A DNA stretch of 64,000 nt from Polytrichum commune (Eukaryota > Streptophyta > Polytrichopsida > Polytrichales > Polytrichaceae). The stretch lies in the NCBI GenBank assembly GCA_950295325.1, contig OX485809.1, positions 34,470,001-34,534,000 of the forward strand, read 5' to 3'. The notes beneath the pieces are model-generated. The model did not search any database. It had not been told where the DNA came from and saw only the letters and a program-made list of their open reading frames with translations. Shown here one piece after another: positions 26,841-64,000 of this stretch (the first letter of the stretch is position 1; the number at the start of each line of letters is the position of its first letter). A program made the position numbers and the translations under genes.

Positions 26841-26864
26841 ATAAATAAATAAATAAATAAATAA
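26841..26864 (+). repeat. (ATAA)n tail of LINE copy A
   Basis: Six tandem ATAA units after the last LINE-like sequence, consistent with a target-primed reverse transcription tail. Confidence 0.7.
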
Positions 26865-26960
26865 GAGTAATGTCCGGGTTTATCTTACCCCAACGTGAAT
26901 GGGGGCCCGTTCCTCTCTATTGTGATCATGTTTGACCAAGTGTCACTATGAGGGTACTTC

Positions 26961-27251
26961 GGATTTGCCTAAATACCCCCGACGAGCGTGGCTCGGAGGC
27001 TAGGTTCGGGAGGGGGTGGCAAGGTTGGCATAAAACATGCCCCCTATTTTTTTAATTGGGTGGGGCCTTATTTGATCTCATAAGGGGCTCCCTAGGGTAA
27101 TTTGGGGCCGCATGACCCAAATTTAGCCAAAAAAAACCCAAAAAAAGTCACCAAGTGGCTAAAACGGGGAGGGCCAGAAAAATAAACCCCACCGAACCTG
27201 GCCTCCGAACCTGACACCTGCAACGCTCGTCGGGGGTATTTAGGGAGCCCC
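26961..27251. mobile_element. Mutator-type MITE, 291 bp
   Basis: Flanked by the 9-bp direct repeat GGGTACTTC at 26,952-26,960 and 27,252-27,260. Inverted ends share CCTAAATACCCCCGACGAGC, seen at 26,968-26,987 and in reverse at about 27,225-27,244, with GGTTCGG copies further inside. A purine-rich, A-run-containing interior encodes nothing. Confidence 0.85.
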
Positions 27252-27315
27252 GGGTACTTCCTCCCTCTCGAGAGGTGGGCTCCTTAAGTTTACTCAATGG
27301 TTCAGTTCCTACCCT

Positions 27316-27520
27316 CTAGGTGGGATCAATGGGGGGTTGTCTGTTGTCTAGTTTTCTTTTGTTTAATATCAAGTATGTGAGGTATTTAATGGCAGTTTGG
27401 TGTAATTGTTTCATTAGTGTTTTGATTTCTCTCTTATGTATTTTTAGTTTTTCTAGTTCTTTAATTGGTTGTTCATGAATAGCCCCTCGAACTCCGGCTG
27501 TGATAGTGATGAGAGGGTTG
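27316..27520 (-). pseudogene. LINE ORF C-terminal segment (copy B)
   Basis: One minus-strand frame stays open over about 65 codons to a stop at 27,318-27,316, with a Lys-rich helix-like stretch (KELEKLKIHKREIKTLMKQ). It follows the Cys/His region of the same element and marks the end of the LINE reading frame. Confidence 0.55.
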
Positions 27521-28279
27521 ACTTGCCACCCAGCCGCTCTGACTGTTTGGATGAGTGGGTTGTATTACTCGGTCTTTTCCTTGTGCACGGTATTTGGGAA
27601 TTTGTCGTGACAATATGTGAATTCAATGAATTGTTTGACGTTTGGTGAAGTTGGCGTTAAAGGAGGTGGGCTTTCAGAGGGGGCACCTAGTACGCATGGT
27701 TTGTCTAGCCTAACCCTGGCTAGACATGTGCATGGTGATGTATGGCATGAACATTGGAGTAGCCATGTTGGGAATGTGTTGTCTTGTGGTCTAAGGTTTT
27801 GGTGACCTACATTTATGAGGGTATAATATATTTTATGTTTGCTTGATTGTAATGTATGTACGATTTGATGTAATGCCTTATTGTGTCGTGCTATACGCAG
27901 TTCCCTTAAGTGTTGATTTTAACATGTAGGGAGTAGGTGTGGCCATGTGTCTAAGGCATTATTAGGGCATAATGTACATTTTGGATTTGGGTATATATTG
28001 GGCCAAAATATATGTTTGCGGTGGTTACCCATGTATTGGGCGTATCGGAATTTTAGGGTTTGTGTAATTTGGGCGTCTATTATCCCATGGTTTTTCCAAA
28101 ATTGGTTGGAGAGTTTGAGGTTGTTGGATGTCCATTTATCTATGTATGTGAATTTGGATCGGGCCCACTTTAATTATTGGTTTTTGTGTTCTTTGTTAAT
28201 GTATGTTTGAAGGTTCCGTATGGCACCCGTGTGTGTACCTGTTGGGACCCGTTAAACCAATATGGCGTAGTATGGGTTG

Positions 28280-28730
28280 TATGTATCCTAGGGGTGTTAG
28301 TGGGTTTGTCTAAGAGGGGTCCATTATTTGCTAGTTGGTCCGCAATTTCATTGCCTATTATTCTTGTGTGTGCCCTGACTTTTTGAATTGTAGTTTTGAG
28401 TGTGAACCATATTATGTGGTTGACTATAGAGGAGATGAGCAGTTTATCCGGGTGGTTATGTTGGGATGATGGATGTCGTATATGGTTATGTATTAAATAT
28501 ATGCTATTAAGGTTGTCTATAAAGATGTGTGTATCTTGTGTGTATTGTTGTATTTCTTGAACTGCTACGAGGAGGGCATTTAGTTCATCTCTGAGGATAT
28601 TTTATAGGCTTGGGAGTCTTTGTGCGATTTGGAGGTTGTTGGCGGGGCAATATACACCTTAACCAACTTTGTTTTCGACGCCATTCTCGTTTGGGGGGGT
28701 AAATGATCTGTCAGTGTATATGCATTGTTG
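28280..28730 (-). pseudogene. LINE RNase H domain (copy B)
   Basis: The minus strand carries IYTDRSFTPPNENG (the TDGS-type first aspartate motif, with Gly changed to Arg) at about 28,710. Further on come FIDNLNSIYLI near 28,510 and VRAHTRIIGNEIADQLANNG near 28,360-28,310, the H-x-x-x-x-GNE-x-AD-x-LA motif of RNase H. A frame break between the first and second parts shows decay. RNase H in a LINE removes RNA from the RNA/DNA hybrid during copying. Confidence 0.75.
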
Positions 28731-30953
28731 GGGTTTGAATTTAAAGGGGTGGGTGTGGTATAGTTCTATTGGTAGTTGTTGTGTTGAGTGGGTGTTAACC
28801 TGGTGGTCATATATTGGGGCTTTATGCCATGCGTGGGAGAGTTTCATTTTTTTCTTAGGAGGGGTATTTTGTTGTGGGTGTATTTTGGCTTGGGTGTTAT
28901 AAACGCAAGTATATTGGTTGTGAGTGTGTTGGGTATTCTTGATTTGCCTAGGGAAGGGTTTTGGTTGTGTATGTTGATTATGGTGGTGTATTGGATTTCT
29001 AGTTGGTGTAGATATTTTGGCCATTCCGTTGTAGGGTTGTATTGTATGGTGTTGGGCGGTATGGTTGCTATTATGTGTAGATATGCATGCGTCATTGGGA
29101 GGGGGTTTTCTTTATGATTGATTATGATGATGGTTGTGGTATTGCGGTCTTCTTGGTCGGCCATGCAGGCCTAGTGGATGGATGTCATGGTCATTTTTAG
29201 GTCTGGGAGGTGGGCAAGTCTGTTACCTTTCCATTTTGATGAGTGTGCGAGTCCCGTCGAGCCAAATAATATGTCTCAGTTGTGTGGGGAGTGGTATTGG
29301 ATAAGTGTTATTGGGCATGTGAAGGGTGAGGAGTAGTACGAGTGTGTAATATTATATGTTTCTATTAGGGCTTGAAGGGTGGAGGGTTTGATGGTTATTT
29401 TTTGGATTGTGTTTTTTGGGTCTTCTTTTTGGTAGGATTGTAATATGTCTTTGGGTTAGCCATAGTATTTCAGTGGCAAAGTCTTATGGTGGGGGTTAGA
29501 AAGTGGGTCATAGGGTGCATTTGGTTTTGGTTATATCTTTCCCATAACCATTGTACTCTTGTCAGTGGCATGGTTAGGATGAATGCTCCCGTTTGGTCAT
29601 ATATGTTGGATTCCGTTCCATGTATTTGTATAGTGGGTTTGTTAGTGATGATATCTTTGTCTAGGTTACATTCCTTAGTGTTTAATGTGAGGTTTATGGC
29701 TATGATGGGTGGGCGAATGAATCTTCGGTCTTGGGATTGCGAGAAGTTTATGCATGGGTTGTATGTGGCTAGAGTGTTGGTTTTGAGTTGGCTTTGTAGG
29801 AATTCGTGAAGTATGAATATATTGTGGTCTAGGGTAATATTGTCATGATGAAGGAGTATTGATGCTTCCACCCATTTTGTCGTGTTAATTGGGTGGTTAT
29901 TTCATTGACATAGGAAGTGTTATTTTATGGCTTTGGCTCCCCATTTGTCTTTACGAGTTGTCGTTTTGGCACTTGTTATGGCTTGGATTGGTCTTCCATA
30001 TATGGGGTCCATTTGATTGTTGGTGTTTGTGGGTGGGGTGCATGTTGGTTCTTGTTGTGAAGAGTTGTGAATTGTGGGTGGTTTACATGGGAATAGCAGT
30101 TGGGCTTGTGCTAAGGCTTCTATGATGAGTTTTGGGGTAGTTTTCAAGTTTTGTTTAAATTCTTTAAAGGATAGTATTTGGAGGGTGTCAAGGTTTTGGA
30201 TTTGATGAAGAGTGGTGATGTTGTACGTGTGTAGTTTGCTGAGATATTTTTTTGAGATTTTATTCTGCTATGGGGAGAAGTGGGCATATTCCGCGGTACG
30301 TGTCCATGCAAGTTCTATTGCTGATTGTTTTATGGGAAAATGCTTTATAGTAGTGTGTACATGGACTTCGTATTCCCTTTCAAGTAGGTATAATGTGCGT
30401 GATGTAGGTGGTCTTCCACATGCTTGATATTTTAGGCGGGGGAGGTGGTAGGACCCTCCATATTTTGTTGTAATATATTTGGTTATTCTCCATGTAGGTA
30501 GATTTGGCCTAGTTGGCCTTGGTCGTTGAGGGCGATTAGTAATTATTTACCAATACAGTTGATGTATTCAAGGAGGAGGGAGGTGGGTGAATATGTTCAA
30601 TGTGCTTTGGAGTAGGTTGCATATTTCTTTGGTTAGCTTACTGAGGATTTTGTCGAGCTTTTTGATGTTTGGTTTGGAGAATGTGGCTACATAGTAGGTG
30701 TAGGTTACTCCCGGTTTTATTACTGTGTTGAGGATGTGTATTTTTTGCGTAATTGTGGTTGGGGATGTCATTAATAGTTTGCTTTGTTTTTTGGCTTTTT
30801 CAAGGGTATTGTTTCTTTGGATGTTCCATTTTAGGGAGGGGACTAGATGAATGCCAAGGTATGTTTATGGTTCGTTGTGTGTGAGGATAGGGAAGGGTTG
30901 GTTTTTGAAGTGGATATGTTGTGCTTGTATGTATGCTTTGAAGAGGGTGGGCT

Positions 30954-31766
30954 TTAATTTTGATTTGTTTGGACATCTTGGATTGCGCACTTAGAGAGGT
31001 TGAGGTCTAGGTGTGCCCATTTTGAGAATTTTTGGAGTTTGTGAATTTGTGGCTGGATGTGTGCTACGTTATCTGTGAGGATGGCAAGGTCGTCGGCATA
31101 CGCAATAGTATTACATGTGGTTGTTGATGTCTTGAGGTGATATCCTATGTTGTCTTTTTCTAGCCACTTGAGGAGTGGATCTAAGAAAATGATAAAAAGG
31201 TAGGGGCTTATGATGTCGCCTTGGATGATGTTTTTATCGATCTGGATGGGTGGGGTTGTTCCAAAGTGGTTACCATAGAAGGAGGTGGTTGAATTTGTAT
31301 ATATGTTTCCTATTAGTTCGACGGCGTCTCGGGGATATCTTAAGTCCTCCATTAGTGTGAGGAGTCTTGCATAGTCTATGGATCCAAAGGCGTTTCTAAA
31401 GTCTATGTAGGTAATGTAGATGTCATTGTTAGTTAAGCGAACATCTTCTAATGTTGCTATTATCATTTGGATTTGTCGGGTTGTGTTTCTTTGTGGTCTG
31501 AAACCCTCTTGGCTAAAGTGTATTATTTTGTGTTTTTCGCCGTAACTTGTGAGGAGCACAGTGAGTGTGCTGGTGTAAAGTTTATAAATGGTGTTGGCCA
31601 GAGCGATCGGTCTATAATTGGTGAGTAATAGTGGGTCATCTTTTTTGTGGAGGAGTATGGTTTTTATGTGTTTCCAATAATGGGGTATGTTTTTTTGGTG
31701 ATAGCATTGCCGAAAGAAGAGAAGAGATATCATGGAAGGTTGGATGGAGAGCTTTAAGGATCTCAT
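30954..31766 (-). pseudogene. LINE reverse transcriptase domain (copy B)
   Basis: A 270-codon open frame with the RT motifs in order: NYRPIALANTIYKLYTSTLT (RT2), FSQEGFRPQRNTTRQI (RT2a), YIDFRNAFGSID (motif A with catalytic Asp), IIQGDIISPYLFIIF (motif B, QGD), and IAYADDLAILTDN (motif C, YADD). All three catalytic aspartates are present. The N-terminal part continues in an overlapping frame at about 31,890-31,640 (KTPCSDNIPNEILKALH), so there is one frameshift just before RT2. The stop after NLSKCAIQDVQTNQN is premature relative to the full LINE protein. Confidence 0.9.
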
Positions 31767-31954
31767 TTGGGATGTTGTCAGAGCATGGGGTTTTTCCCTT
31801 GGCTAGTTTTTTAAGGCAGTTGTCAAACACTTCTCGAGAGAGGTTTTCTGATATTTTGGAGTTGTGGGGGGCTATTTTCTTGACAATGAATCCATCCTGA
31901 TCATGCCATGGGTATTTTTGGATTGCACATTGGCATGTTGTGGGATGATCTGTG

Positions 31955-33240
31955 GGGTCATCAAAACCAAACAATAAGCATACTAAAAATAAACCACAAA
32001 GATTGGAGACCACAACAACTCCCACACAACCAACACATTGACACCCACACAATCTTGACCATCCCACCACATACCATATGCTACCCCCCAATACTAGAAT
32101 GGCAAAAATACTACCAATGCATAGAACCATTATTTACATCCATTATGTGCATACACAATCAATGTAGCCCCCCATGAAACATACAAATTGCACAAGAACT
32201 ACAATGCTCATGCAAAGAACCCACAAATATCCATGTAGACACCTACCAAATTAAACCTATCCCCACGAAACATAACATCAAATTCCGGGAAAAAAAAAGG
32301 AGAACCACCCCCAAAAAAGTAGACCCCCCCTTTGAACCCACCTCCACATTACCCCTACCAAATAATATGACATCCACCCCCTAGATTGAATTCACAACAA
32401 TGCATGTACACAAAATGGCTCCTTCATTCCACCTACCAAAAACTCCAAAGGACACATAGAAGGCAACATGACAAAAGCATGAGTATACAACCCCAACAAT
32501 AACACCCAAATATCCGAAAAGGATACTTGGACACAAAGACATCCTCCTTGCGGAGGTCAATGCAATATTAATCACCATCAAAACCATACACACCACTTGA
32601 GTAGACATGCATATTTACATACAACCTCAATAGCATATTCCTAATACACACCCATCCTCACAACACAACCTACCATACAAACTTACTCATAGTGACGATA
32701 ATACACCAAATATACGGGACCCCACATAGAATCTCCATACATAAAGTCCGAGCCCACACCAACACCACCGGAAACGAATTAACGGATGCACTAGCAAACA
32801 CCAATGCTCACAAAGACAAACCTACCACCACACCACGTATTCACATTGCCCGCACTAAGGCCCTACTAGCTGGCCAGTTGCCCAAACGCCACACAAGATG
32901 GAGATATTCGCAACCTCCACACATGCATCAACAAAGACCATTGAAATAGAGAAATCCACGACACTGAAGCAAATTCCCATACATTGACACGTGGTTATCA
33001 AATGACCAAATTACCCACAAACTATCCAACTACTTATGGAATGCCACTAGTATATCTGACACCCAAATCACACAAACTTTGAAATTCCAATAAGCACAAA
33101 ACATGGGCAACCACATGAAACACATCTTTTGGCCCACCACCCACCCCAATCCCCGCACACTATGTCCCATCAACACCAGAGACACATGGTCACACCTCCT
33201 ATCCATATGCGAGAACCAACACATAAAGGGCAAAGATCAA
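31955..33240 (+). mobile_element. LINE copy C (plus), 3' part only
   Basis: Homologous to the 3' half of copy B but on the opposite strand. ILTIPPHTICYPPILEWQKY (about 32,050-32,110) matches IATIPPNTIQYNPTTEWPKY of copy B. RNase H motif VRAHTNTTGNELTDALANTN is at about 32,745-32,805. CPINTRDTWSHLLSIC is near 33,165-33,210. It lacks endonuclease and RT, as expected for 5' truncation, and contains several stops. It meets copy B head to head near 31,950. Confidence 0.75.
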
Positions 33241-48239: not shown

Positions 48240-51154
48240 AATTGCAAAGGTTGTAGGGCCAAATGATGAGGCTTACAAAGTGACCATATCCTTCATAGTG
48301 ACCACATGTTCAAAATCACACAAATTTGTCAACAAGACTATGGCCATGTTTCATATCACTAGGGGGCAAAAGTAACCATCCAAATGGTCCTTTGTAGGAC
48401 ACAAAATTGTATTGGATCAAAGACAAGTGTGCTCTAGACAAGTGTAAAGGTCTTGGGATATAGCATTTTGTTCAAATGGCCACTATGCCATGTATCGTCA
48501 CTCCATCACATTCTGCATTTTTGGAGTTGCGCCCGTAGGTGACACTCTCTTGCTCCAAAATGTTCTTTCACATACCACTTTGTTGTGGTCCTTGACCCGA
48601 ATTGCAATGAGGAATGAATGAATTATGATGCCAAAAAAATGTTTGATTGTCTTGCAAGGTGAAGTTGAGTTCACAATGTGCCATAATAAACATTGTGAAG
48701 TTGTTGGGTCATGGGACAATGTTGGGATTTGGTGTAAGCCATTTTTTTGGCCATAGCATGGCCGAAGTGGGCAATTCTCAAATTCTAGTAATTAGAATTT
48801 CATTCATGATTGGATCAGAAGGCTATTGCCGTAGTAAGTTGGTTATTGCATGTAACCACCTTCTCCTTCCTCTTAACTCAATAAGGAGAAGGTTGGCCAA
48901 GGAAGAAGGAGGCTTATTTGCATATGCAGAAATTTGGCATAGTTTCGTTATAGAAGCAATAGGCTTTAATATCACTGAAACTCTAAGAGAGACTTTGTAT
49001 GCCTAGATGTTAGGCTAGTCCCAAGTTAGATGCTCGAGGACATAAGAAGTCGGTAAGGAGGAAGACGGACGAGTGGAAGGTTGTAAGGACTAAGTTAATG
49101 GAGATATCACATTAATGGAATTATGAGAGTGGGCAAATGTAGTTAGTTCTTGCTTTCACTTAAATAACCAAAACCCAGGGTACAAACTCTCAAGGAAGAC
49201 TTAACTGGTGTCTATTACAGGCATTCGTCACTTCATAGTTCATTAATTAGACCAAAGGGTTGCTATCTTCACTCTACAACATGATTGGTATGTCTTTTAC
49301 TCTCCTTTCCTCTCTTGGTTTCCCTCTCAATCTTTCTCAGTCAGTAGGGTATGTGTGTTTGTCACAATAGTAACCATCTCGCCATGAGATTTCGTATAAC
49401 AATAGTCAAGAGAGAACAATAGTCTTTGAGTAACACAATTGTCTTTCGGTAATCATTGGCCAATGCATCTTCGATTCAAAACAACTCCTTAATTACTTGG
49501 TCAACGTTAATTCCAATACAAAACAAATTTTTATTCATTAATTCCATATTTAATCATTACTCACAACTTATGCAATTAACCATTATCAATCAAACTATAA
49601 TCTTGGTCGCCCTGCACAAACTGCAACAACAACATCCAGGGTAACACACAAGCTAATAGTTGATTGGGTTAATTCACATTTCATACTCAAAGATCTTATC
49701 TCTCGACTACTTAACAATCAAAACTTAATAAAGATCCAATTAACTTATGCCTAGGTCCTCTTGATAATCCAAAGTTAATTATATCTTACATTCCTTTAAT
49801 CTCTCTCACATCCTTCGATTTCTTCCCTAATCAATTGATCAGAAGTGATTTCTCATCACTTCAATTGTTTGAGAATCTCTCCTTAAACTCATTTTTCAAA
49901 TGATAATTCTATCAACCTAAATCCCAGGTTTAACTATGATCTCTCTTCGGCTACACTATCATCACATCACTCCTCTCTGTCTTGCTTCAGGTTAACAATA
50001 ATCAATTTTCCTTATGGGTTGGCCTCTGGCCTTACCCTTCCTCTCAGTACCTATCTTTAGGTCTCAACTATAGCCAATAGTTACACTCTCGGCCCGACAC
50101 TTGGCCTTCTGCCTCACTCTTTCATAACTCTCCAGACGATAGTCTATCTTAGCCTTCTTTATCACTCAAGGAATGCACCTCTCAAGTGTATCATATCATA
50201 GTTGCACTATTCTCTCTTTCTTCAACAAACACAGTATCAGATTGTATTGGCGAAGTGGACTCCATTCCTCTGTTCACCACACTCGCTCTCTTCCTCTCTC
50301 TGATGATAGTTCATTCAGACAACGACCCACACACTCTTCTTACTCACAATCACAGATGGCTCAACCATATTCCATAATTTGCACTTAAGTAGTAGTGACG
50401 CCATATTTGCCTCGACTGCCAATAGTTTTTTCTCTTGGTTTCTACATTAACTTCTTCACTCCTCTCATATTGCTCAATCCTTACTCATCTTTTCTTATTG
50501 ACTCCTATCTCCTATCCATATTATCTACCCCTCTCTGAGGTAATTCGACCTTCCCTCTGGCTCGCTTCACTTTCAGCATTTCTCAACAACTCACTCTCAT
50601 CACTCTGATTCACTCGAATTCTTCTACGATTACAACCTTTATCAATTTCAATTACAATCAGCATACAATTGTGTTTCACAATATCTTTACCAATTCCGGC
50701 TCACACTCTGTTCTCCTCAATTTTACTCAAATTCTCATTCCTCTCACTTAGCCTTCATCATACAATTTCACTTATGGACTCTCAATCGACTGCGGCTTTT
50801 ACATCGGTCAACCAATTCAAAATGCACATTCACAAGGAGATTATTTTATTTTCATATATTATCAACGTAGTAAATTCATGGAAAAAACCTCTAATAAAAG
50901 CATCAGCATGTGGGACTTTGGAACTGCTATGTGAAATTTAAATCAATTCTCTATATAACAAGGTAAACAACACATTTTTACTATTTATTCATAAACATTT
51001 TATATTTTATATTACATATTAAACCCTTTCCTTAATTATACTAATAAAAAATCATGAAAATCACTATTATGAAGAATGTTATCAAAAGGTGATTTCCACA
51101 AGGTAGATTTCGAGGCAGTTGGTGCCTCAGCCTTTTGGAGTGATAGTAAGGTGT
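48240..51154. other. No gene recognised; C/T-rich from about 49,200 to 50,770
   Basis: A 119-codon frame at 48,647-49,006 (+) has no motif. The C/T-rich part resembles 13,060-13,900 in composition. Near 50,775-50,800 one frame reads SIDCGFYIG, which recalls malectin-like receptor ectodomains, but nothing around it supports that. The left end of the large transposon beginning at 51 kb should lie here but no CACTA terminus was identified. Confidence 0.4.
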
Positions 51155-51394
51155 TTACTTATGTGTCACTGGTTCTGGCTCTTGCACAACTAGATGACTA
51201 TCTCTCATCGGTGTTGTTTGCACCATTGGAGACTCTGGCTCCTCGATCACTGGAGTTGTGGTATCTTCAACAGGTACAGGACCAGTCCTCCTGGAAGCAA
51301 CGTCACTCAAACCTGCTGCCCTTTCTTCAACCAACTTTTGAAGCCGAACAAACACTTCATTCATTCTGTTGGCGCCGCCAAGATGGACTGACAT
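51155..51394 (-). CDS. Possible alternative C-terminus of the transposase
   Basis: Overlapping the last codons of exon 3 but one frame off, an open stretch of 79 codons reads MSVHLGGANRMNEVFVRLQK and then an acidic Pro/Thr-rich tail to a stop at 51,155. Its composition is protein-like, so either a 1-nt frameshift near 51,390 shortened the ancestral protein (which now ends SILAAPTE) or a small unseen splice joins the two frames. CAG|TCC at about 51,388 could serve as an acceptor. Confidence 0.4.
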   Translation of the reverse strand: MSVHLGGANRMNEVFVRLQKLVEERAAGLSDVASRRTGPVPVEDTTTPVIEEPESPMVQTTPMRDSHLVVQEPEPVTHK

Positions 51395-54300
51395 TGGGTA
51401 AGCAATCGGCTCCTTGGTCGGCTATCCTTCAATTCATATGCAATGCTCATCGATTTTTCATATGCAATTCTTCTTGATAGTCCAGGCTCCACTAACATAA
51501 AGTTATGAAGTATTGAGCTTACAGGCCGTATACATGTAAAATCAAATGGACACCAACGATTGTTGTAGACAACATTCATGCCAGTGACCTCATCTACTAA
51601 GTCCACATATATCTCCTTAGACCCTTCATAGGATATGTCTTGAAGATGAGTATAGTAATCTGCACTGAAGTAGATAGAGATCTCACCCATAAAATCATGG
51701 CTAAAGAATCCACGGATCTTTGCTTTGAAAGGAGTATCATCCACGCCACTATCTGGTTTCACAACAACATGACTTGATGCTTTGTACAAGACCCCCTCCA
51801 ACATGACGTTGTTTACTTTGTTGATAAAAGGGACCCATCCTTCTTCCTTGTGAAAGCGTCGAGCCAAGTATTCCACAATCTCAAGTGATTGTGCCAACGT
51901 TGGAGCATGTTTCCGTCCAATTAAAATGCCTTTGATTGCTATCATCGATGCACATGGACTACCACTTGCAAGTTTCAAAGTCTGTGTAATATCTTTTGCT
52001 TTCTCAATGGAACTAGTATAGATTCCACATCTGGTGTGCCACAGAGGACACTGATGGAACCCTTCATGATTGTCTTGGTCCACCCCTTCAGGATACATTA
52101 AATACCCATTAACCTTTTTAAGGGCTCTTTGGCATACATGAAGAGAATCTCGTTCTTCACTTATTTGATGCACCACACCTGTGAAAAGCTTGCGTGAGTA
52201 ATACTGGATGAAGCTTGTTTCCATCAATTTGTTGTTTGTAGTGATCTTTCCAAACCGAGCCACTTCTCGCTCAAAGACGAAACACCAATATATCTCACTT
52301 GGGCCAAATCTTCGAACATCATCTAACAAGTGGGTTGCTCCAGCAGCATGCTCTAGAGGAGCTCCATTGCATCCATCGAGGTCTTCTGTACATACTCGCC
52401 ATGCTTGAAGAAGCAATTGAACAGCCTCCAAGTTCACAATACTCCAACCACTAGTCCTCGTTTGGTTGAAGAAATAATGTGCCAAATCGACAAGCAAGGC
52501 CCCTACAAACCATCTTTTTTCATAGATACGCCCATACAATACATGGAGAATATGAGGTAGCACCCACTGTAGAAATTTCTGATTTTCTTCGGCCATATAA
52601 ACAGAATGTCTTCCAATTGGATCATCGGGCCACCGTCCCTGCTTCAATTTGTATGGATGGCTTTTGTTGACTTGCGCACAAACCTTTCGGACTTCATCCA
52701 ACAACAAATCATCTTGGAGAGAAGCCACTTCGTTAAATAACTTGGCTGTATAATGCTTGAATAAATTGAGGCCGGCTATGTGCATTAAATCAAACACCAA
52801 GTCATTTGAAAGGTCAAAGTCGTACAAGTGAAATAATTTCCATAGAATTGATTCACCAAAGATGCCAGTTTCACGAGATATTTTCTCCTTAGCAACGGTT
52901 GTGTCCGCTCGCTTCCATTCGCGAACACTCTCAAACAACTTATCTGATGTGCGTCTTGGTGGGGGTTCATGAACCTGCACCAACAATCATATTTGTTAAA
53001 CTAAAAGAATGAAAAAGACACATAATACGGTTAGAGAGGAAGTTATGAATGAGGAAGTTCAAAACACAATACTTGAGAGGATTTTATGAATGCACCTGGA
53101 TAAGATTGTGATCATAGTATTGTCCTTGCACAGTAAGTGAAGTATGCATTACACATCTGCGGCATCCAGATTTTCCAGACGACTTGAGTTGACCAATTCG
53201 ACATTGGGTTGGGTGGTCCCCTATGACTAGCATAAGAATTACCCGTATGGTTGTAGGACCATCTTGCATTATAGGTAGATGTTCACCTATGTATTGATTA
53301 GGAACTTGAAAATCAACCTGGAAACCCTCCACAAATAAGTGCTCCAAGTCTTCTATTAAAGGGAGCAAGAATGCACACTTGGCATCATTCATTCTTGCAT
53401 GAATAGCATCACTATGAGAATGTAGTGGAATGAATAGGATAGGTAGGTTTTGTAATGGGCCTCCTTTCTTTGCATTCAACACATTGGCTGAAACAGACCA
53501 ACAACTTCTAGAACCATGTTTTGATGTAAAAAAACCATCCCAGTGGATTCCCAATGCAACATTACGAGGATCACCTGCACATATATATCGACATATACAC
53601 AATCAATATATCAAATAATCAACTATTTACAATTTGTAAATCAATTAAAGAAAATGAAGTTTCATTTAGAAAAGAAACAAATATTCAAAGGATTTTAGGT
53701 AATGATATGCATCAAAATCAAATTACCTTTGCACTTGATCCTTGGTGCTGTAATGTACTCTCGACATTGCCTGCAACGGAAATAGTACATCTGGATTGTT
53801 TCATCCCAAATCTTCTCATCACATACCCTTGGGAAAGATTTATGGGCCATCTTACAACTTGGACAAATGACATGCAGTTCCCACATAGAAGTAGGGTCCC
53901 AAAAAGCTTGATAAATCCGCACCTTTTCACCATCCCAAAAATCCTTGATTTCATTGGGAGATTGCAAGACATCTTTGTTCATCCACCTCGACTTCTTATT
54001 CCACATTGTCAAGAAATCTATACAATGTGTGGAAGAACGCATCAAAAGGGCAAGTTGTTCCCCAATCGGTAAGTAGTCAAAGGATATCATGTTTTTTCGC
54101 ATGGTATTGCAATCTGTGCAAATCTCAGCATGCCTCGGACAATCTTTTTTATTCAGTGGCAGATCACATTGACAACGTACTATTTGACTAGTGGTATAAA
54201 TGTCCTCTTTGCTTGGAGGATAGACATTTGGCTCATGACCGAATTCCTCCGTGCCAACACACATCTTCCATCTATTAGGCTTTATCATACCCAATGCTGA

Positions 54301-54864
54301 ATAGGTTTTCACCAATTTCACCCAAGATGTAGGTGCTCGAACCCCTTCAAGGTGTCCATCCCAATTTTCAGTCAACTGCGAAAGGAGCCTCCCAAGGGTT
54401 TGCTTTTCTACTGGCATTTCGCTATCATTGAATCCTCCAAAAAGTTCACTTAGCATATATCCTTGCAATTCCAAAGACACCTCATGGTTGTCCCACATTT
54501 TTTGGATGTCAATGAGCTTTACTAGTAGGGCAGATTCCAATGTGTGTCTTCGAGCATCGTAATCAGCTTCGATTGCAACGTTTAGCTCTGAAAGCTGTAA
54601 ATTTTCATTCTGTGTCTCTTGTTGTGAAGGACAATTACTACTAGAGCTACCAATATCACATACCTGATCTACTGGACCTTGCTCTCCAATGCAAGTGTTT
54701 ACACCACCACCAATATTGAAGGTTGTTGTTTGAAGGATTGCATCTCTTATGGCATGATAATTTGCAGAAGTGTGAGAAAGAAATCTTCCACCACCTTCTA
54801 ATAATCTGCAAGTGGTACACATGCACCAAACTCTCCTATCTCGTCGGTTGGCTTGACGTTCCAT
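51361..54864 (-). CDS. CACTA/EnSpm (tnp2-type) transposase, three exons, apparently intact
   Basis: Exons are 54,864-53,727, 53,574-53,096 and 52,974-51,361. Borders are AAAG|GTAATT, TGCAG|GTGATC, CCAG|GTGCAT and TGCAG|GTTCAT, and the phases keep one frame open for about 1,076 codons. The start at MERQANRRD is chosen because it directly precedes a zinc-finger-like head (CMCTTC, then H); the next upstream codons contain stops. Exon 1 then has more Cys pairs (CPSCKMAHKSFPRVC, CRQC). Exon 2 opens with GDPRNVALGIHWDGFF, the GL-x-x-DGF site of tnp2 enzymes (first Asp). It continues with PLIEDLEHLFVEG, LVIGDHPTQC (second Asp) and GCRRCVMH. Exon 3 holds a DUF4218-like part (GPSEIYWCFVFEREVARFG, probable Glu) and a C-terminal part. 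The product should bind the element's ends and move it. Possible autonomy is inference. Confidence 0.85.
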
Positions 54865-54886
54865 TTGAATAATATTACCGTAGAAC

Positions 54887-55543
54887 CTGTACAATAATTG
54901 AAGCGATCATCAATGACCATTTTAATCGCAGGAGCTTCCTGAAAGAGAAGAACCCAACACAAACAATATTTAGCAAAGACACATGAAGCATTTAATAAAC
55001 ATTTAGCTCTATAAAGACAGGATATAGAAGTCCATGGAAACTATTGACCCTTGTTACAAGAAATAAACATCACAGTAAAATTTTGAGATTAAGAAGCTTG
55101 GATCTCTAAGCATGCAGAGATTTAATTTCAAAATCACAGAAAAAAAAAAGCTTGCGTAACTACAGAGAAACCTCTTGCCTTCTGAGAGGGAGGACATAAA
55201 CATTGATTAAAACAAAAATAATTCCATCTTTTTAGGTATGAATGGCAGCCCTAAACCCACTGAAAATATACTTGAGACTCATGGGAGTATAGTATGCAAC
55301 AGTCTCATCAAACTGACCTTAGTGCCAAATGGTCCGCGAGGAGGATCCAGATCAAAACGCTTCTTACCCTGCAAAACCATGAAGAGTATTTAAAGATACG
55401 CCAGAGAAATACTGAACATCCATCAAGGAGGATGGGCACAGATCAGGTGCAATCGCTATAAAATTTTACAAACCGTACCTGGCGCTGATATTCTAACTCT
55501 TCCCGTTCAGCTCCAGTTGCAATGCCAAATTCATCCAATTGAC
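54887..55543 (-). pseudogene. COX5b-like: COX5b-like exons (probably captured fragment)
   Basis: Three minus-strand exons have canonical borders and compatible phases: 55,543-55,479 (QLDEFGIATGAEREELEYQR), 55,368-55,318 (GKKRFDLDPPRGPFGTK) and 54,938-54,887 (EAPAIKMVIDDRFNYC). In plant cytochrome c oxidase subunit 5b the same order occurs: an IATG-x-EREELEAEL region, then GPFGTKEAP, then a DKR-x-x-GC segment. The first Cys of the zinc site is kept (FNYC) but the surrounding residues have drifted. The exons for the WFWLEKG and CPVC zinc-binding part are missing, and no mitochondrial presequence exon could be recognised upstream. The third exon ends 23 bp before the transposase ATG, on the same strand but in a different frame. 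This is probably a host-gene fragment captured by the transposon; a disrupted resident gene is the alternative. Confidence 0.7.
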
Positions 55544-56788
55544 CTGAAAACGAGAGTCCACCAATAACCAATCAGTTTTCTTGGTTCAAATTTGTAAACG
55601 ATTTCTCCTAAAAAGAACACCCTCTGTTGTTCGGATATGCCAAAAACTATGAGGAGTCTCGGCAACAAGGATTGTCGATGAGAACTACAACTGAATTTCC
55701 ACCTGGTTTTTCTAGCCGGTGCAAAAGTCTAAGTATAGAATCTGGACTTAAGAGTAATTAACTAGGGTCCGTAACATTCATTGCTAGATCAACATGTGGT
55801 TCAAAACCCTAATTCTCAGTAATATCCGTAAGAACCGTCCAATAACCTAGCAAGATGGATCTGGTAGTCCAAGATGTACAGGGTAACAAAATCATCTCCA
55901 CAGTTTTTTCCAAGAATACAAATACAGGCCTCCGAGATTTGACCCTTTTGTGCGACCTAAATTCTCACATTTTTAATTTAACACTGAAGTCTGAGGACTC
56001 TGAACAAAAAATCTTGCCCTCGTGAATACGAAGAATTTAGTAATTGCATACACATTGTGCTTCTGACCATTAGGTTCAAATTCATGAACAGAAAGGCTCC
56101 AGGTAATTAAGAGAAAATCGCATTCCAAAGCTTCGATGAGAAATCCACAGGTAATTATAGCAAAAGAGAAACCACTGGTTGCTATGGGGACATGGAAAGC
56201 GACATTGGCAACTCTCCACGCAGATCAATTGTTCAACAAAGCAAGAACTCACTCATTTCCCTCTCCATTTCCCCAAACGTGACCATTACTCAGGAGCCCC
56301 ACAATGGAAATGTAAGCCACATCCACCAGTGTACCTACAAATCTGCTAGGGTTCCTTCCTTCATGCAGATTCTCTCAACGCCAACCGCACGAATCACATC
56401 TCCGTGCACGCAAGAGGAATTGAAGCACAATAAAAATCAATCTACTAACGAGCCCTGCAGCGCCAATGCCCTTGGAGTGATGTCTGGTAGGGTTTCCTCA
56501 CACATGCACATTCTCTCTATGCCCGATTCTCCAACAACATCGCCATGCACGCGCGATGGATTTACATCCAGCACATCACGCTGCGCTGCCCCTTCCCTGC
56601 TTGCTGCTCCTGCTTCCGACACCGCCATGGCCATCACCATAGCCGAAAGGAACGGAAAAAGGGAAAAAAAACGAAAGGGAACGAAAGGGAACACAAGGTT
56701 CTTAATGCGAATCAGCGACAACCGTCGGATACAATGATCGGGTGGCGCGAGGATTTCCACGTGTTAGATGCGCGGGAATAGGGGAATT
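55544..56788. other. Upstream region of the minus-strand gene; no certain exon
   Basis: On the minus strand 56,760-56,437 is open and GC-richer, starting after CCCTTTTTCCG-type sequence with ATG codons at about 56,642 (MVMAMAVSEAGAASREGAAQ), and could hold the first exon and promoter of the COX5b/transposase unit. A GATG|TAAATC border is a weak donor. On the plus strand 56,192-56,737 is also open. I cannot decide which, if either, is real. Confidence 0.35.
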
Positions 56789-57295
56789 TCTCATCGACAG
56801 TGCACCATGTCACGATGAATCAAGCTCTAGGTACGCCTTCTTCGTGTTCTTTTACTTCATGTATGTTAATTCATTTTTTTTAGGAATTGGAGGATTCATG
56901 CTGGGACAACAAGAAGACAATTCAGTCTTTGTTAATTGGCATTTGGCAGGTCTGGCGCTCTTCTTTGTCCAACTGGTCGCTCCTTGAGGTTCTGGTGCGT
57001 AGTAGCAGAGGTAGATTATGTGCAGTTATCATTGACTTGAAACCATAGTCCTCAATTCGAGGAATTCCCGAGCGAGGTTGGACGCACGCATACTTTTATG
57101 TAGAATGTTGCATTGTCTTGGCGCTTCTCATCGGCAGTGCACAGTTCTTGCGCTGAATCAAAGTTTTAGGTACGCCTTCTTCGTGTTCTTGCAGTTCGTG
57201 CACATCTAGCGCTCTTCTTTGTCCAGATGGTCGCTCCTTGAGGTTCTGATGGTGATTAGTGGAGTCATTTTAAGCACAGTTATTAATGGACTTGA
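56789..57295 (+). repeat. Imperfect direct duplication in the central (promoter-like) region
   Basis: Unit 1 (56,789-57,040) and unit 2 (57,125-57,295) share CTCATCGRCAGTGCAC, GGTACGCCTTCTTCGTGTTC and GGTCGCTCCTTGAGGTTCTG in the same order. Unit 1 carries an extra segment of about 90 bp containing TTTTTTTTAGGAATTGG. The duplication lies between the divergent genes. Confidence 0.65.
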
Positions 57296-57556
57296 GCCTG
57301 CACAATCTTGGAAGCTAGATTTATCACTTCTTGAATTATTGATGCGTTTGCAATTGACATCGAGGAGATATCTCCGATGAGAACCTGGAGAAAATTAATG
57401 TTGCTATGTACTTGTCCTCTTTTCAATCACCTTCAGAGCCAAGCCTTTGGTGACCAATGGTGATCACAGGCTGATTGACTGAAGTAAATGAAGAACATTT
57501 TGTAAATGAAGCCTGATTTTTGATATTGAGAAGGTGCAGCCTGCAGGTTTGTTGCT

Positions 57557-57694
57557 GTGGTTTTTTCTGTGGAGTTTTTTGCTTCTTATTCTCGTGCATC
57601 CAACAGGTGCTTATTGGTTGTTTGCACGACTGATTCAAGAGTGAAGCTATATCGCGCACCATTTTGTGACTACACACCTGAATGGGTGGAGGTT
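57557..57694 (+). pseudogene. TFIIIC90-like WD40 exon (probably captured fragment)
   Basis: The plus-strand frame reads CLLVVCTTDSRVKLYRAPFC followed by DYTPEWVE and a GTTTGT donor at 57,695. Plant WD40 proteins related to the TFIIIC 90-kDa subunit carry a CLLAVCT-x-x-x-x-VKLYR-x-PF-C-x-F-x-x-EW-x-EV stretch, which this matches closely. An acceptor CCAACAG|G at 57,607 fits. No other exon of that gene is recognisable nearby, so this is an isolated fragment. It may have been captured together with the COX5b-like exons on the other side. Confidence 0.5.
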
Positions 57695-58025
57695 TGTTTT
57701 CCACTTCTTGATGCTTGTGTACTGTCATGGTGCAACTTAGGGTTCAAGCTCACAAGTTTTGTTTCATATGAATCATTCTTAATTCTTGCAAATTGCTTGA
57801 AGTGTCAATGTTAAGGTGTCTAAAGTAGAGAAGTTTGTACTTAAGAGTTATTGATTCTTGATTTGTATTCTTGAATGGTGCTACAGTGCCATGCAAGTGA
57901 GAATAAAATTCTATTCACCTACTCATCTTTGTAGTGAAGAGTGATCAGTAATTGAAATTGCTCATAGTAATAGTGAACAGTTCAACATAATCCTAATTGA
58001 TCATTTTCCAAATTGATTTTTGAGC

Positions 58026-60245
58026 ATGATGATAGGCATCATAGTGGTTTGGGATGGAGATCACAATGTGATCTCCAAATTCAGACCTCCTAAAATAACA
58101 TCTGAGGTGATTGGAGCTCTAGCCAGAGAAGGAAAACTTCTTGACAATGATGAGATTCAACTGGTGGGACAAGATTCCTTGGAGGCAGGTGATTATACTT
58201 TCATATCACACAGTGCAAGTCCTATTGCAACTCTTGGTGCACACCAATCAGGCACATGTCTAGAACATGTGTCAACAGTTATTGCTACACCTCTGGTAGC
58301 TCATGACGCCACATCCCCGAAACAAGATGGAGAAGAAGAATGTGAAGAAGAGTCTATGGCGGTGTCAGAGTATGAACGGGTACGAAATAAGAAAGTGGCA
58401 TTCAATCAAAAACGTTTCTTAGAGTTATTCCCGGAGAAGTAAGTTTTTTCTTACTAATTTTTATTTAATTGAGATTATAAAATGTTCTTGAATGTACGTA
58501 AATTAGAATATGAACGGTTCATATGGTCAATCAATGACCATATAACCATAATGTTGTGCAATGGTCATATACTTTCAATGGTGCTTCAAGCTCTAATGAT
58601 TGCTGTGTTTTACATAATCAATAATTATACAGAATAACATATTGGTTGTAATATCAAATTTTAATGTGCCAAAATTATGCCGTTCAATGGTCATTGATTA
58701 CTATTGTTCAATGTCAATTGCACAGAGAAATCAAGCCCAAGCAGGGAAAAGAACATGCAAATCAAAAGAAGCAAATGAAAGAATCTCCAAAGATGGTAAT
58801 TGGGAAGTCATCAAAGGTGAAGGACTTACGAATGAAACCAATTCCAGGGTATGACCAAATCTTTAAACCTCCATCAAGAATTGATAGAGATCCTTCAAAA
58901 AAATACGGCAAATAAGCTTTGAGAGTGGATTTCAATTCTCAGTATCACACATTCATGTCAAACAAGAGGCTTCTAAAGGATTGGCTCCAAGAGGCAGGTT
59001 TCTATGCTTCAGCTCCCAATCTAAAATCTGACATGGAGGCAAAAATGGCTTTGAAGAAGCTTATTTCACTCAAGCATTCAAACCTTGCAGCACTCAATTT
59101 TGATAGCATTACTATGAGGTGGCAAGAGAAAGACATTTATGCAACTGCAAAATCAATGCTACAATATTCCAGAAAGGCAGATGGTCGGAATCATGTGGAA
59201 GTGGGTGGCGAAGAGTCTAATAGTGAAGATTCTCATGTTGAAAGCCATTCAGTTGGCCTGGATACTCGTGCGGCTTTGAGGTATGTTTTGTTAATACCAT
59301 TTCTTATCTAGTTGTAGTGTTTATGACTTTTTATTCTTTATAAATTCAAAATCTAATGAAATGCACATGTACTTGGTGGTGTTTTCTAGATATCAAATTT
59401 CACCTGTCTTATATAGCTCAACATCCACTCAACAAGCTCCCGGGTCTGCTCAAAACCAAAGTGTAAGTTTTTAAATACTAAGCTTTAAATTGTCTTTGAG
59501 TAGCTTTTAAATATTTACCTTACTCTTTTGTTCTTTTGAAAATTGACTCATTTGCATGTGTATGGCAGGGAAATCCAATTATCCAGTCAAGAACATTGAA
59601 CATGTCTAGTTTGGGGCTTCCCCCCAAAACTCCAAAGCCTTCCCGAGCATCATTTGTGCTTCTAAATAGGAACATTGACCACTGCAAGCCTTTGGAGGCA
59701 AGTAACTATGACACAACTAATGATAAGGTAAGGATCATGAATTCAATACAATTCAATAGATATCACGTTTTTGAATTAGTTTTGATGTTTTGTTTATTTA
59801 TTTAATTTGACAATAGTATGTGCAATCCTTTAGAATATCCTATTGTGTTGGTAAATTTGTCAATGTCATTTATTACTTCACTTACTAAAACAATTCTCTA
59901 ATTATACAAATGATGGATGATGGTGAGCTAGCGGTTGGTGGAGTGCCAATTGGAGCAATTTCCACAAGGAAGAGGAAAGCTAATACTCTCTCAAAAGCAA
60001 ATGGCAGCTCTCAAAAGACAAGTAGTGATGAGTCAATAATAAACTCTGTGGCCGATGCGGAAAGAGTTGTTTTGAAAGAATTTGGATTGATTGATGTGGA
60101 TATGATGTATTCAAAACTGAAGGCTTACATGAGAGAGCAAAATATGCTTGACACGAAAAAACCTTTCAAAAATAGCTTGAAGCTACGTGAGGAAGAAACA
60201 GTGATGAAAGTAGCACAGTACATACTAGAAAAGTGGGACAACTAG
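58026..60245 (+). pseudogene. Five-exon gene of unknown function, one in-frame stop
   Basis: Exons 58,026-58,438, 58,726-59,280, 59,390-59,462, 59,569-59,727 and about 59,928-60,245 join in phase (GAGAA|GTAAGT, CACAG|AGAAAT, TGAG|GTATGT, TTCTAG|ATATC, AAAGT|GTAAGT, GGCAG|GGAAAT, ATAAG|GTAAGG) to about 510 codons. The last acceptor is less certain. A single TAA at 58,913-58,915 breaks exon 2 between KKYGK and ALRVDF. The first 65 residues (KFRPPKITSEVIGALAREGK, then DNDEIQLVGQDSLEAGDYTF) look like a small beta-grasp, ubiquitin-like head; the rest is basic and hydrophilic, ending KLREEETVMKVAQYILEKWD. No known family is recognised. Divergent position next to the transposase suggests the element's second protein (analogous to TNPA in En/Spm), which is inference. 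Confidence 0.6.
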
Positions 60246-60350
60246 TATTCTACGTTTGTGAAGTTAGAACATTTGTCCATAACACAATACATACTAGAAA
60301 AGTGGGACAACTAGTATTCTACGTACGTGAAGTTAGAACATTTGTCCATT
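60214..60350 (+). repeat. Tandem duplication, 69-bp period
   Basis: The last codons of the gene and its stop (ACATACTAGAAAAGTGGGAC, then AACTAGTATTCTACG and GAAGTTAGAACATTTGTCC) are repeated once with a 69-bp shift. The second copy lies in the 3' untranslated part. Confidence 0.85.
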
Positions 60351-60351
60351 C

Positions 60352-60534
60352 ATACATTTGTTAGTTAGGACATTTGGGATTTACAACATTTGTAAATCAC
60401 CACATCTGTTAGTTAGGAAATTTGTGATTTACAACATTGGCATATCATCACATTTTTTCAAATACTACATTTGTCATTTGCTACATTTTCCATTTCCTAT
60501 CATTCACTAGTTTCATCATGTGGAGATGGTAGTG
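60352..60534. repeat. Subterminal short repeats and possible CACTA-type right end
   Basis: GTTAGTTAGGACATTTGGGA (60,359-60,378) and GTTAGTTAGGAAATTTGTGA (60,409-60,428), each followed by TTTACAACATT and then ATCACCACAT / ATCATCACAT, form tandem 50-bp units, followed by ACATTTGTCATTTGCTACAT-type motifs. Dense short repeats inside the ends are typical of CACTA elements. TAGTG at 60,530-60,534 could be the last five bases of the element, but no matching CACTA end was found on the left side. Confidence 0.4.
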
Positions 60535-63500
60535 TGTTCTCTAGATGGTGTCATTTGCTATTTCAGCATTAAATTGATAGTAAAAGGGTTAGTAATTTGT
60601 TTCGTTTTACTAGGTAGGAAACACAATAATCTCCTTGTGATTGCTCATACAATCAGAAAATAGTTACAATGAATCTCAGTTCTTCCATTAGTTCTCATTC
60701 ACGACTAACAATATTCTTCCACAACAAAGTAATCTGCAATCACTGCAGTAGCTACTGAAAAAGGAAAATAGTTCAATAGTTATCCTCGCCCGATCTCGGT
60801 GCTAAGGGAGACAAGCCTATTGTTTAACTATGCGCTCAACAAAATCAGAGAATGCCTGCCTATCTCACCCGCGCCAACCCTCTTAACTTGGCGGGGAGGG
60901 GAGGAAGACGATAGTTACAGTAACCGCCTAACTAGGCCCTTCTATGGCCGTGACTATAGTGGTAACTTCCTAGCCTATGGTTTAACTATATTCATCCTCT
61001 AGGATGACTTCATCCAAAGTTCCAACTATAAGCCTATAGTTTTACGAAGTGACCAAAAATTTGGCTCACACCAATGATGACATTGCATACTAGTAAAGGA
61101 ACAAAATAACTAAGACTATGAGAGTCATGGTCCTACTTGAACATGTGTCCTTGGTGATACTCCGAGAAGGCAAAATGCGAGAGAGATTGTTAGAGGCAAG
61201 AGTGCTAAATAAATAAATAAATAGATAAAAAAGCATGTGAGTGCAAGTGAAGATTAATAGGTGAAAGGCAATAGTTTTTGAGTTGTGGAAAAGAAAATCA
61301 ATCATCTAAAGCCAAAGAATCAAAAGATTTCAAGAGGAGTCTTGATCGTACGAAGGTTGAGGAATCGCTAGACTGGTCAAGAAGGGGACTTTCCCATGTG
61401 AAGAGAGAAAGCACATAGCCTAGTGGAAGAGGAAGGTTGTGAGGGCCTGAGATGGGCATAGTTGTTAACAAGAGGAATTTAATAGGCCATAGCCAAGACT
61501 TAGGTTGAGAGGCATCTCAAAGAATGAGAGACATTACCATGGGCTAAACACTCTTAACACATTATAGCCAACTAAGTCTATTGCGCCTTGTCACAACATG
61601 CGATGAATATGCATGTAGTTGTAATGAGGCACAAGGATAGTTTGGGCAAGCTACTTGCTGCTAAGAATGCTACCTTGAGAGAGGAAAAACTTTACCTCAC
61701 TGAACTAAGCTTGTGACCAATGGAGATTATTCGACTAACATAAATTAGGCTAAACCATATGAAAAATGTCATATCCTATCTTGTGGTTCCACGATTGACA
61801 TAGAGGATGGAATTAAAATGACAGGTGTCCACACACATAGGATAGAACCACAAATGACTTAGAAAGCACCAACGGACCATAAGCGTGTTAATTAGACTTT
61901 ATTAAGAGTGAATGAAGGAACAAAAAACACGAGACATGCAATAGTGTGAGATGATTAGCAAATCCAATTTGTGCTCGTAGCCACTTTTCTCATGGTTTGA
62001 GGAGCTTGTATAAATACTCTATTCACTATCAAAATGAAGATTCTCTAAGTTAAAACAAAGATCATTAACATTGTCAAAATATTATTACTTTTCTTAGAGA
62101 ATCTTCCAACTCGTGTAAGGTCTCCTAAGATAACTACACATGGGTGCAATCATGGTAAAGTGGACCAAAAATAACTCCATAAGTATACTAAAACCATAAT
62201 TTTTTTGTCAAAGGCCTAAAAATAGTAGCAAGGCGTTTTCATGATGGCCTTTGTTGTTGTGTTGAATAGTCAAATGAAGAAAATCGAGTTGAGATCTTCA
62301 ATACTAATCATCAAAAGTGATGCTCAAAAGCAAATGGTTGACTCTCGTTTTGGACGTAGATTTCATGACCTTAACTATTTTGAAATTGGAATTTTCTTTC
62401 ATATTCCTTGAATTCATTATCTACTTGAGGGCATCATCAGAAAAATGTGTGGACAATCATCAATTTAATGTAAGTTTATCATACTTTAAACAAATTTCAG
62501 ACAATCATTTGTTCAATATCACATACTTGCACACCAGTTGTATCGTCTTCTAAAATATGTGGACTTTTCTTGGAATTTTTTTGCTAGTATAATTTGCTTG
62601 GCTTCGTAGATTAATATGCTTTCAAAATGTTTAAGATTTTTTTCTTTACAAAATTCAAAGTTAGGGTATAGTCTTGAATCACTTTCACTCAACACTAGGC
62701 ATGGATCAGGAGTTGTCACTTTACTGTGTTTGCACCCACCTATTAAAGAATTTCTTAGTAATAGACCCCTTCACCTATTTCGATCACATACGGGCATATA
62801 TTTGTGCCACCCAATTTCAACATGCACTGCGTTTTGCATGAGATAATTTTTGCTTCATGATCAACCTTTTATGAGGTTCTCTAACATGTCGTGATTGTGA
62901 GAACGTGGGACCATAAGTTAATGCATACATATATTATTCATATATATTTGTCTATGCACCCACACCTCGAAGAATATGTCAATGAGTGTGAAATGATTAG
63001 CGAATCCAAATTATGCATGTAGCCAATTTTCTCATAATTTTTTAGTCCATACTAATATCTTATCCCCTACCAAAGGTAATATTGATTTTTATTTATTTAA
63101 TGATTGTTTACGTCTTTCCATACATGTTGATTGTTGACTCTATATTGAATAACAAATATTCAACATGTACCTTATAATGCCTTATTAACAGAAGTCTTCA
63201 TTCTACTATAGAATATGAAAAATCCATGGTCATTTGTTGGAGCCTCCACTCAATTATCTATGTGACGAACCATATGTGGACATAAGTCATACTATGCCTC
63301 TACTCGATTCTTATTATGTATATCATTTTTTAGGTACAACTTAACACAATTTTTGGTCCATTTTATACTCAATTTTAAGAGCACACAATAGGTCACAAAC
63401 TAAAATAGGTGCACAAACCTTGATTATATATTATTTTGAATATAAAATTTGAACACATTGTTCAACTTACACTTTTGGAACACATGTTTTTTTGGTGTAG

Positions 63501-63849
63501 CTTAGTAGGGCCAAACCCAACCACATGTCATTTAAATATTAGTGTTCATTGAAAACAAATAATCACACTAAGCCCACTTACCTTATATATTTATGAAATT
63601 TCTTTCCAACATGTGACATTGTATCGGCCATTTTAGCTGCAAATTCATCATAGCCGTGCTCTATTGTATACTTTTATTAGTTATAATGGAGTTCCCAACA
63701 TACTTCTTTCTTGACATTTACTTCATTATGATTTTTTCAGAAGGAAAATTGTTATTAATATTGCGAGCGTAGCTAAGGTACACCCTGTAAAGTAACTACA
63801 AATATTGATGAATGATTGAATATTCTAACCACATGTGCCAGTGTGTAAG
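60535..63849. other. No gene recognised
   Basis: A GC-richer patch at 60,785-60,985 has no clear identity. A 60-70-bp segment (GATTAGCAAATCCAATTTGT...CACTTTTCTCAT) near 61,954-62,000 recurs at 62,995-63,040 in the same orientation. Other frames are short and unsupported. Confidence 0.45.
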
Positions 63850-64000
63850 CAGAGGATGATAGGAGCTAGACAACTCCTAGTTGAAGATGGATGGATTGGA
63901 GTTAGACAAGTCCAGATTGACAACATGTGCACTGGGGTTAGACAACTCCACATATAGTGCATTGGAATTACACCATTCCATATTGAGAACATGTGCACAT
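63850..64000 (+). repeat. Tandem repeat of ~35-40-bp units running off the window
   Basis: Variants of GGAGTTAGACAACTCC followed by an ATTGA-x-AACATGTGCA-type phrase recur at about 63,860, 63,897, 63,934 and 63,964. Each unit contains a short GGAG...CTCC dyad. The array continues beyond the sequence given. Confidence 0.6.

Follow-up and report, generated by a model that had tools for sequence, protein, structure and literature searches.

We analysed a 64,000-nucleotide stretch of the genome of the moss Polytrichum commune (C7:34470001-34534000, contig OX485809.1; hereafter, the window) and ran searches with it against the whole 407.8-Mb genome, whose assembly has 406 of its 408 Mb in seven contigs of 42 to 78 Mb. 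Towards the right of the window lies one two-gene CACTA-like element of 9.8 kb, which carries captured host DNA between its two divergent genes.

Structure of the element

The element spans positions 50831-60639 (9,809 bp), and its ends and genes are as follows (TIR, terminal inverted repeat; TSD, target-site duplication).

50828-50830, no strand: left TSD, ATT
50831-50845, plus strand: left TIR, CACAAGGAGATTATT, a perfect 15-bp match to the right end
51361-52974, minus strand: transposase exon 3, stop codon at 51361-51363
53096-53574, minus strand: transposase exon 2, with the tnp2 (PF02992) match
53727-54864, minus strand: transposase exon 1, start codon at 54864
58026-58438, plus strand: second gene, exon 1
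58726-59280, plus strand: second gene, exon 2, with an in-frame TAA at 58913-58915
59390-59462, plus strand: second gene, exon 3 (modelled by eye)
59569-59727, plus strand: second gene, exon 4 (modelled by eye)
59889-60245, plus strand: second gene, last exon, an open frame whose acceptor is not fixed
60333-60504, plus strand: right subterminal repeats, 16-bp period, core ACATTTG
60625-60639, minus strand: right TIR
60640-60642, no strand: right TSD, ATT

These ends represent the sole inverted repeat of at least 11 bp with equal 3-bp flanks in the regions searched (48.0-51.3 and 60.25-63.9 kb). As a chance control, 300 Markov shuffles gave 36 such pairs altogether, none of which reached 15 bp or began with CAC. 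The 3-bp TSD characteristic of CACTA (EnSpm) elements is present both here (ATT) and in a related element at locus L012 (AAC). The TIR begins with CACAA (ends CACAA.../...TTGTG) and not with the CACTA/TAGTG of the superfamily, and the element is therefore classed as CACTA-like. An earlier note on this DNA had proposed a single two-gene CACTA-like element of about 9 kb at 51361-60534. We found both genes within one TIR- and TSD-bounded element, but its ends lie outside that interval and its TIR departs from the canonical start.

The transposase gene is composed of three exons on the minus strand and encodes 1,076 amino acids with no internal stop, in agreement with the open tnp2-type transposase read there earlier. 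Its start codon at 54864 is backed by the N-terminus of a related transposase. The only Pfam family identified in it at E ≤0.01 was Transposase_21/tnp2 (PF02992), with E 5.5e-05 and 22.9 bits for the spliced protein and E 1.4e-06 and 28.1 bits for exon 2 alone; both scores are under the Pfam curated cut-off of 28.6 bits. We count the transposase as tnp2-related. When the open frames were scanned with Pfam one by one, only the transposase exon received a family, and the other weak matches (E 0.04-0.14) were regarded as chance.

The second gene diverges from the transposase on the plus strand, beginning at 58026, and has about five exons with borders set by eye. Its exon 2 shows 49% identity over 110 amino acids (E 1e-35) to the second gene of L012, which stays open at the position of the TAA; no Pfam match was found for the second gene. 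The five-exon gene of the earlier note thus stands in outline but is interrupted by an in-frame stop. An autonomous element would have both genes intact; because the second gene has this stop in exon 2, the copy is probably not fully autonomous. The subterminal repeats noticed near the right end are indeed there, with a 16-bp period. Six of the seven ACATTTG sites in the element are located at 60269-60473, one is inside the transposase gene and none is near the left end. This CACTA (EnSpm) feature is confined to the right end; in L012, repeats are likewise seen by eye near the right end. We also observed a 69-bp tandem duplication (94%) at 60211-60348, covering the final codons of the second gene and sequence past its stop.

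Host sequences in the centre of the element

The region between the two start codons was mapped by a genome search with positions 54880-57800, followed by realignment to the fetched donor loci. Host loci match 2,681 of its 3,161 bp (85%). These matches derive from at least four donor loci and not from the two host genes originally suggested. The captured pieces are listed below.

54924-56580, minus strand: COX5b segment (about 15 bp of exon 4, exons 3 and 2, introns), 88% to C3:336069-337670
56578-56600, minus strand: second COX5b piece, identical at all 23 bases to donor sequence just 5' of the start codon, after a skip of 274 donor bp
56599-56787, minus strand: segment from the C5 donor, 86% to C5:49709831-49710012
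56788-57200, plus strand: first C1 piece, 92% to C1:23536638-23537051
57200-57503, plus strand: second piece of the same C1 donor, 93% to C1:23537632-23537935
57594-57694, plus strand: exon-sized segment matching two host loci, 79% to C1:37096432 and 78% to C1:50808505

The unmatched parts are 54865-54923 (59 bp), 57504-57593 and 57695-58025. Two of the four donors could be named through a nearby Pfam domain and COX5b through a match in the PDB.

A complete COX5b gene is present elsewhere in the genome, on C3, consistent with the earlier view of the COX5b sequence as captured. The hand-joined exons of this donor match plant COX5b (PDB 7jro, E 8e-31), and a Pfam scan of the locus found no family. 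The copy in the element retains complete exons 2 and 3, including introns and splice sites, together with only the first ~15 bases of exon 4; the coding part of exon 1, most of exon 4 and exon 5 are missing. COX5b-derived DNA does therefore lie immediately upstream of the transposase, but of the three exons claimed only two are whole. Relative to the C3 donor, changes are seen at two of the 137 exon sites and at 135 of the 1,454 others; the hand-set exon borders take in roughly a dozen intron bases. When two C4 paralogues served as outgroups, 35 of the 54 assignable non-coding changes fall on the element branch (nine more were unassignable), as do both exon changes, against an expectation of about 8.2 exon changes on this branch (Poisson P(≤2) ~0.011). 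The low rate of exon change hints at constraint within the element.

In its donor, the C5 piece precedes the glycosyltransferase-20 (GT20) domain of a trehalose-phosphate synthase gene by ~1.2 kb, and its sense points to the transposase. The two C1 pieces at 23.537 Mb precede an ALE2-type receptor-kinase N-terminal domain, encoded on the plus strand, by 3.3-4.6 kb (4.2-4.6 kb for the first piece). The surrounding donor locus (L004, C1:23535138-23538551) contains diverged repeats spaced ~340 bp apart, at 75-92% to the captured piece, and the corresponding segments of the window repeat likewise.

The exon at 57594-57694 reads CLLVVCTTDSRVKLYRAPFCDYTPEWVEV, and both host copies read CLLAVCTTDARVKLYREPFCDYMPEWVEV. 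It differs from the two copies at 17 and 18 nucleotides, with 9 and 10 silent codons, respectively, and four replacements. The host loci are mutually 87-90% identical over ~1.8 kb and are one base apart in the exon, and the larger distance of the element's copy suggests an older capture or another donor. This exon had been called TFIIIC90-like. Its match to a duplicated host locus upholds it as a short exon of host origin, but the label is unconfirmed: no Pfam family was found in the plus frames of ~13 kb of the duplicated locus, and PDB matches of the exon were weak, with a best E of 0.086. Capture in a single piece of a head-to-head COX5b/TFIIIC90 host gene pair is ruled out by the location of the donors on separate contigs.

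For comparison, the control stretch 61000-63900 yielded one high-copy repeat and three small pieces (40 of 4,034 candidates scored), a coverage at which single-copy matches may be missed. The repeat, at 62141-62738, is ~600 bp long and had 39 further copies at 82-87% among the 40 candidates scored; its borders coincide with 22-bp inverted repeats, and it is probably a non-autonomous TIR element. Elsewhere in the window (21300-33000), both strands bear LINE-like remnants, recognised by eye as several degraded open frames for reverse transcriptase and RNase H. On C5, fourteen light-harvesting protein matches of equal score lie within ~95 kb (C5:1751760-1846160) and represent a tandem gene array. 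For one light-harvesting protein, the top PDB matches with a single domain are 8htu and 7xqp, both from the moss Physcomitrium, in line with a moss host; a fused LHCI chain (9vfj) reaches a higher score through two stretches.

A second mosaic and the probable origin of the captured centre

We found no further copy of the element with queries taken from the transposase (1,540 bp), from around the left end (921 bp) or from the right part (3,151 bp), although assembly gaps could hide one. The exact 15-bp TIR motif occurs at three genomic sites, two of which are the element's own ends; at the third (L014), likeness to the element ends covers only 15-16 bp. With up to one mismatch, the motif has 65 forward and 62 reverse matches (reversed-motif control, 15 and 16). 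Related ends were sought at 19 of these sites (18 fetched among the 100 matches listed, plus L014) and none were found; nor did the sites inspected include non-autonomous copies with the same ends. Fifteen of the 18 fetched sites belong to one conserved stretch (by eye, reverse-transcriptase coding), two to another repeat, and one is a singleton.

Transposase exon 1 has 37 matching stretches in the genome, its own included and with several per locus in places, and the next best five show 46% identity. Three of these five (L011, L012 and L013), read at length, belong to one family of at least five copies and are mutually 98-99% identical in the aligned parts. The transposase of this related family is 44.5% identical to that of the focal element over 1,031 aligned positions, a rough figure obtained from joined frames, and a homologous second gene is present on the opposite strand in L011 and L012. 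The L012 copy measures 9,910 bp, with TIRs CACAGGGAAGG/CACAAGGGAGG, the TSD AAC on both sides and repeats adjoining its right end; the ends of the family read CACAG.../...CTTGTG. At L012:1108-1915 it contains an ~800-bp insertion, which is found at full length at 16 other places with 98-100% identity and represents a recently amplified repeat.

In the related family, a mosaic likewise occupies the space that separates the transposase from the second gene (L013:5796-7900), where 1,680 of 2,105 bp match seven other loci:

L044, within the gene RIC1: 94 and 97%
L043: 92%
L046: three pieces, 87-96%
L048: 85 and 89% in two pieces, plus another, overlapping match
L042, 5' of a TPR gene: 88 and 86%, part of the piece being a multi-copy repeat as well
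L045: 98%; found at two additional places, and by eye perhaps itself a transposon
L047: 92 and 90%; at two places

Pfam named two of these seven donors, RIC1 (L044) and TPR (L042), and identified no family in L043, L046 (plus strand, 3,500 of 3,801 bases scanned), L047 or L048. None of the seven is shared with the focal mosaic. Nearly the whole L013 mosaic is held by the copies on C7 and C1, and its first part only by those on C6 and C3 (L012). Since parts of the mosaic are present in all four other copies, the captures predate the spread of the family; since they come from other donors and occupy the same place as in the focal element, such centres arose at least twice. The genome-wide check for copies lacking the captures or the plus-strand gene, which the earlier note had proposed, ended without another copy and with nearest relatives that keep the plus-strand gene and carry other captures, and did not refute the single-element reading.

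Seven of the 11 donors of the two mosaics contribute two or three pieces each, which are colinear and in a single orientation, with eight skips of 33-791 bp inside donors. Neighbouring pieces abut or overlap by 1-4 bp at eight of the 17 junctions of the two elements together. This junction pattern suggests gap repair that switches and slips between templates, for which it is the expected outcome. Most likely, excision leaves a gap, and repair synthesis departs from the element template, copies stretches of other loci, skips within them and returns to the element, as the junctions would indicate. Internal deletions after capture may be an alternative source of the skips. Capture via spliced RNA is ruled out, as the eight skips have no GT...AG borders at their breakpoints and the COX5b introns are retained. 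Merging of neighbouring insertions is another route, described for Pack-CACTA elements in the part of that account consulted (PMC13317346); it appears to fit less well because by itself it would enclose one contiguous stretch.

Possible use of the captured DNA and comparison with known systems

Taken together, we consider it likely that this is a low-copy CACTA-like (EnSpm/CMC-type) cut-and-paste transposon whose centre is a mosaic of host DNA that originated by gap repair, and that the two genes probably start within or beside this mosaic. By analogy with known CACTA families, the transposase would cut at the CACA.. ends, leaving a 3-bp duplication, and the second protein would bind the right-end subterminal repeats in the manner of TnpA. 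With ~85% of the 3.16 kb between the start codons taken up by the mosaic, both genes probably have their transcription starts in captured DNA or close to it, and COX5b exons 2-3 may be spliced, optionally, onto the transposase RNA as an untranslated leader. Such use as promoter or leader, which the earlier note had suggested, is plausible. The donor orientations along the centre (minus, minus, plus, plus) fit divergent use.

Several points weigh against this explanation. The PF02992 scores are below the curated cut-off, as given above. The reading frame of the COX5b exons differs from that set by the transposase start codon at 54864, so that these exons could provide at most an untranslated leader; their low rate of change could equally result from a constrained donor copy that was lost or unsampled. 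The tie of the C1 pieces to the receptor-kinase gene is loose, given the 3.3-4.6 kb between them, and five of 16 orientation patterns would be equally orderly by chance. Nine of the 17 junctions have 2-214 unmatched bases between the pieces, so that the template-switching model rests on the other eight. Of the three centres searched (focal, L013 and L039), that of L039 gave repeats only among the 40 of 4,785 candidates scored; a high-copy repeat filled this candidate list, and single-copy matches may be missed as in the control stretch. A non-autonomous element may also have been where the mosaic was first put together.

The strongest competing explanation, to which we give somewhat less than an even chance, is that the captured DNA is passive filler in an ordinary gene-capturing CACTA relative, with short native promoters next to the start codons (54865-54923 and 57695-58025). 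CACTA elements usually capture arbitrary fragments, according to the portions of the accounts consulted (PMC1947982, PMC8978399); the RIC1 piece of the related family comes from a gene interior and not from a promoter, and the frame of the COX5b exons is in keeping with filler. However, the unmatched DNA before the transposase start codon amounts to only 59 bp, three of the four focal donors supply 5' or upstream sequence, and the COX5b exons changed less than the remainder of their piece.

Assembly of the mosaic in a non-autonomous (Pack-TYPE) relative, by insertion merging or repair, with later joining to both genes by recombination, seems unlikely. The consulted text of two studies presents Pack-TYPE elements as the usual carriers of multi-gene mosaics (PMC8903248, PMC1947982), but both families described here have a mosaic only between the two genes, the gene layout and right-end repeats are kept, and a non-autonomous copy with the same ends was not found among the sites inspected. 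That the locus is not one element, and consists of a decayed COX5b locus with a transposase inserted next to it or of an assembly artefact, is highly improbable: it would account for the single-copy state and nothing more, whereas common TIRs with equal 3-bp flanks enclose everything, the truncated COX5b piece is joined directly to sequence from other contigs, and the same layout recurs in a relative.

Discussions of captured gene fragments usually treat them as cargo of transposons devoid of a transposase. In this element, they form most of the control region of a transposon that retains an open transposase, and a separate family has the same layout with other donors. If captured host 5' regions do drive the transposase, capture would be a route to promoter renewal. 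An extension that we regard as speculative, and on balance doubtful, is that a lineage of two-gene CACTA-like elements repeatedly swaps its bidirectional promoter for fresh host 5' regions, the two families representing two independent rounds. Were this true, transposase expression would borrow host promoters and spliced leaders, would shift with each capture and might escape silencing.

The comparisons that follow draw on parts of the published accounts. CACTA (EnSpm/CMC) elements are described as having a tnp2-type transposase, a second function, a 3-bp TSD and asymmetric subterminal repeats (PMC4158355, PMC2613891), features that maize En/Spm, soybean Tgmt* and the focal element have in common, the second function being putative in the focal element. 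Unlike En/Spm and Tgmt*, the focal element has a TIR starting with CACAA, a second gene that lies on the strand opposite the transposase and is interrupted by a stop, and a host mosaic between the two. Pack-TYPE elements are by definition non-autonomous (PMC8903248). They share with the focal element the capture of gene fragments at the DNA level between TIRs (PMC8903248, PMC13317346), here from four donor loci, but the focal element differs in retaining an open 1,076-amino-acid transposase. The soybean CACTA element Tgm-Express1 similarly carries fragments of several unrelated host genes (five), including introns, and some are spliced into chimeric transcripts (PMC1947982). Tgm-Express1 sits in a host gene and is reported to be transcribed from the host promoter, whereas in the focal element, known from sequence alone, an open transposase flanks the mosaic.

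The closest parallel is found in Chenopodium, where transposase-bearing CACTA-like elements have host gene fragments upstream of the transposase, as here, and some of their regions seem prone to capture (PMC8978399). That CACTA elements capture host DNA, including at sites upstream of their transposase, is thus already published. The earlier note considered a CACTA element that uses captured leader exons of two genes unusual; as regards capture at this site, the arrangement is in print, and multi-locus filling does not appear in the portions of the accounts compared. No report of such capture in bryophytes was found in the open-licence literature, covered in part. The Chenopodium examples, as far as that source was consulted, involve one or two fragments (e.g., 80 bp of AP2), whereas in the focal element a multi-locus mosaic fills the space between the genes. 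Relative to the portions of the accounts compared, the P. commune element is set apart by this near-complete filling from several host loci between divergent genes, by its recurrence in a second family and by its moss host.

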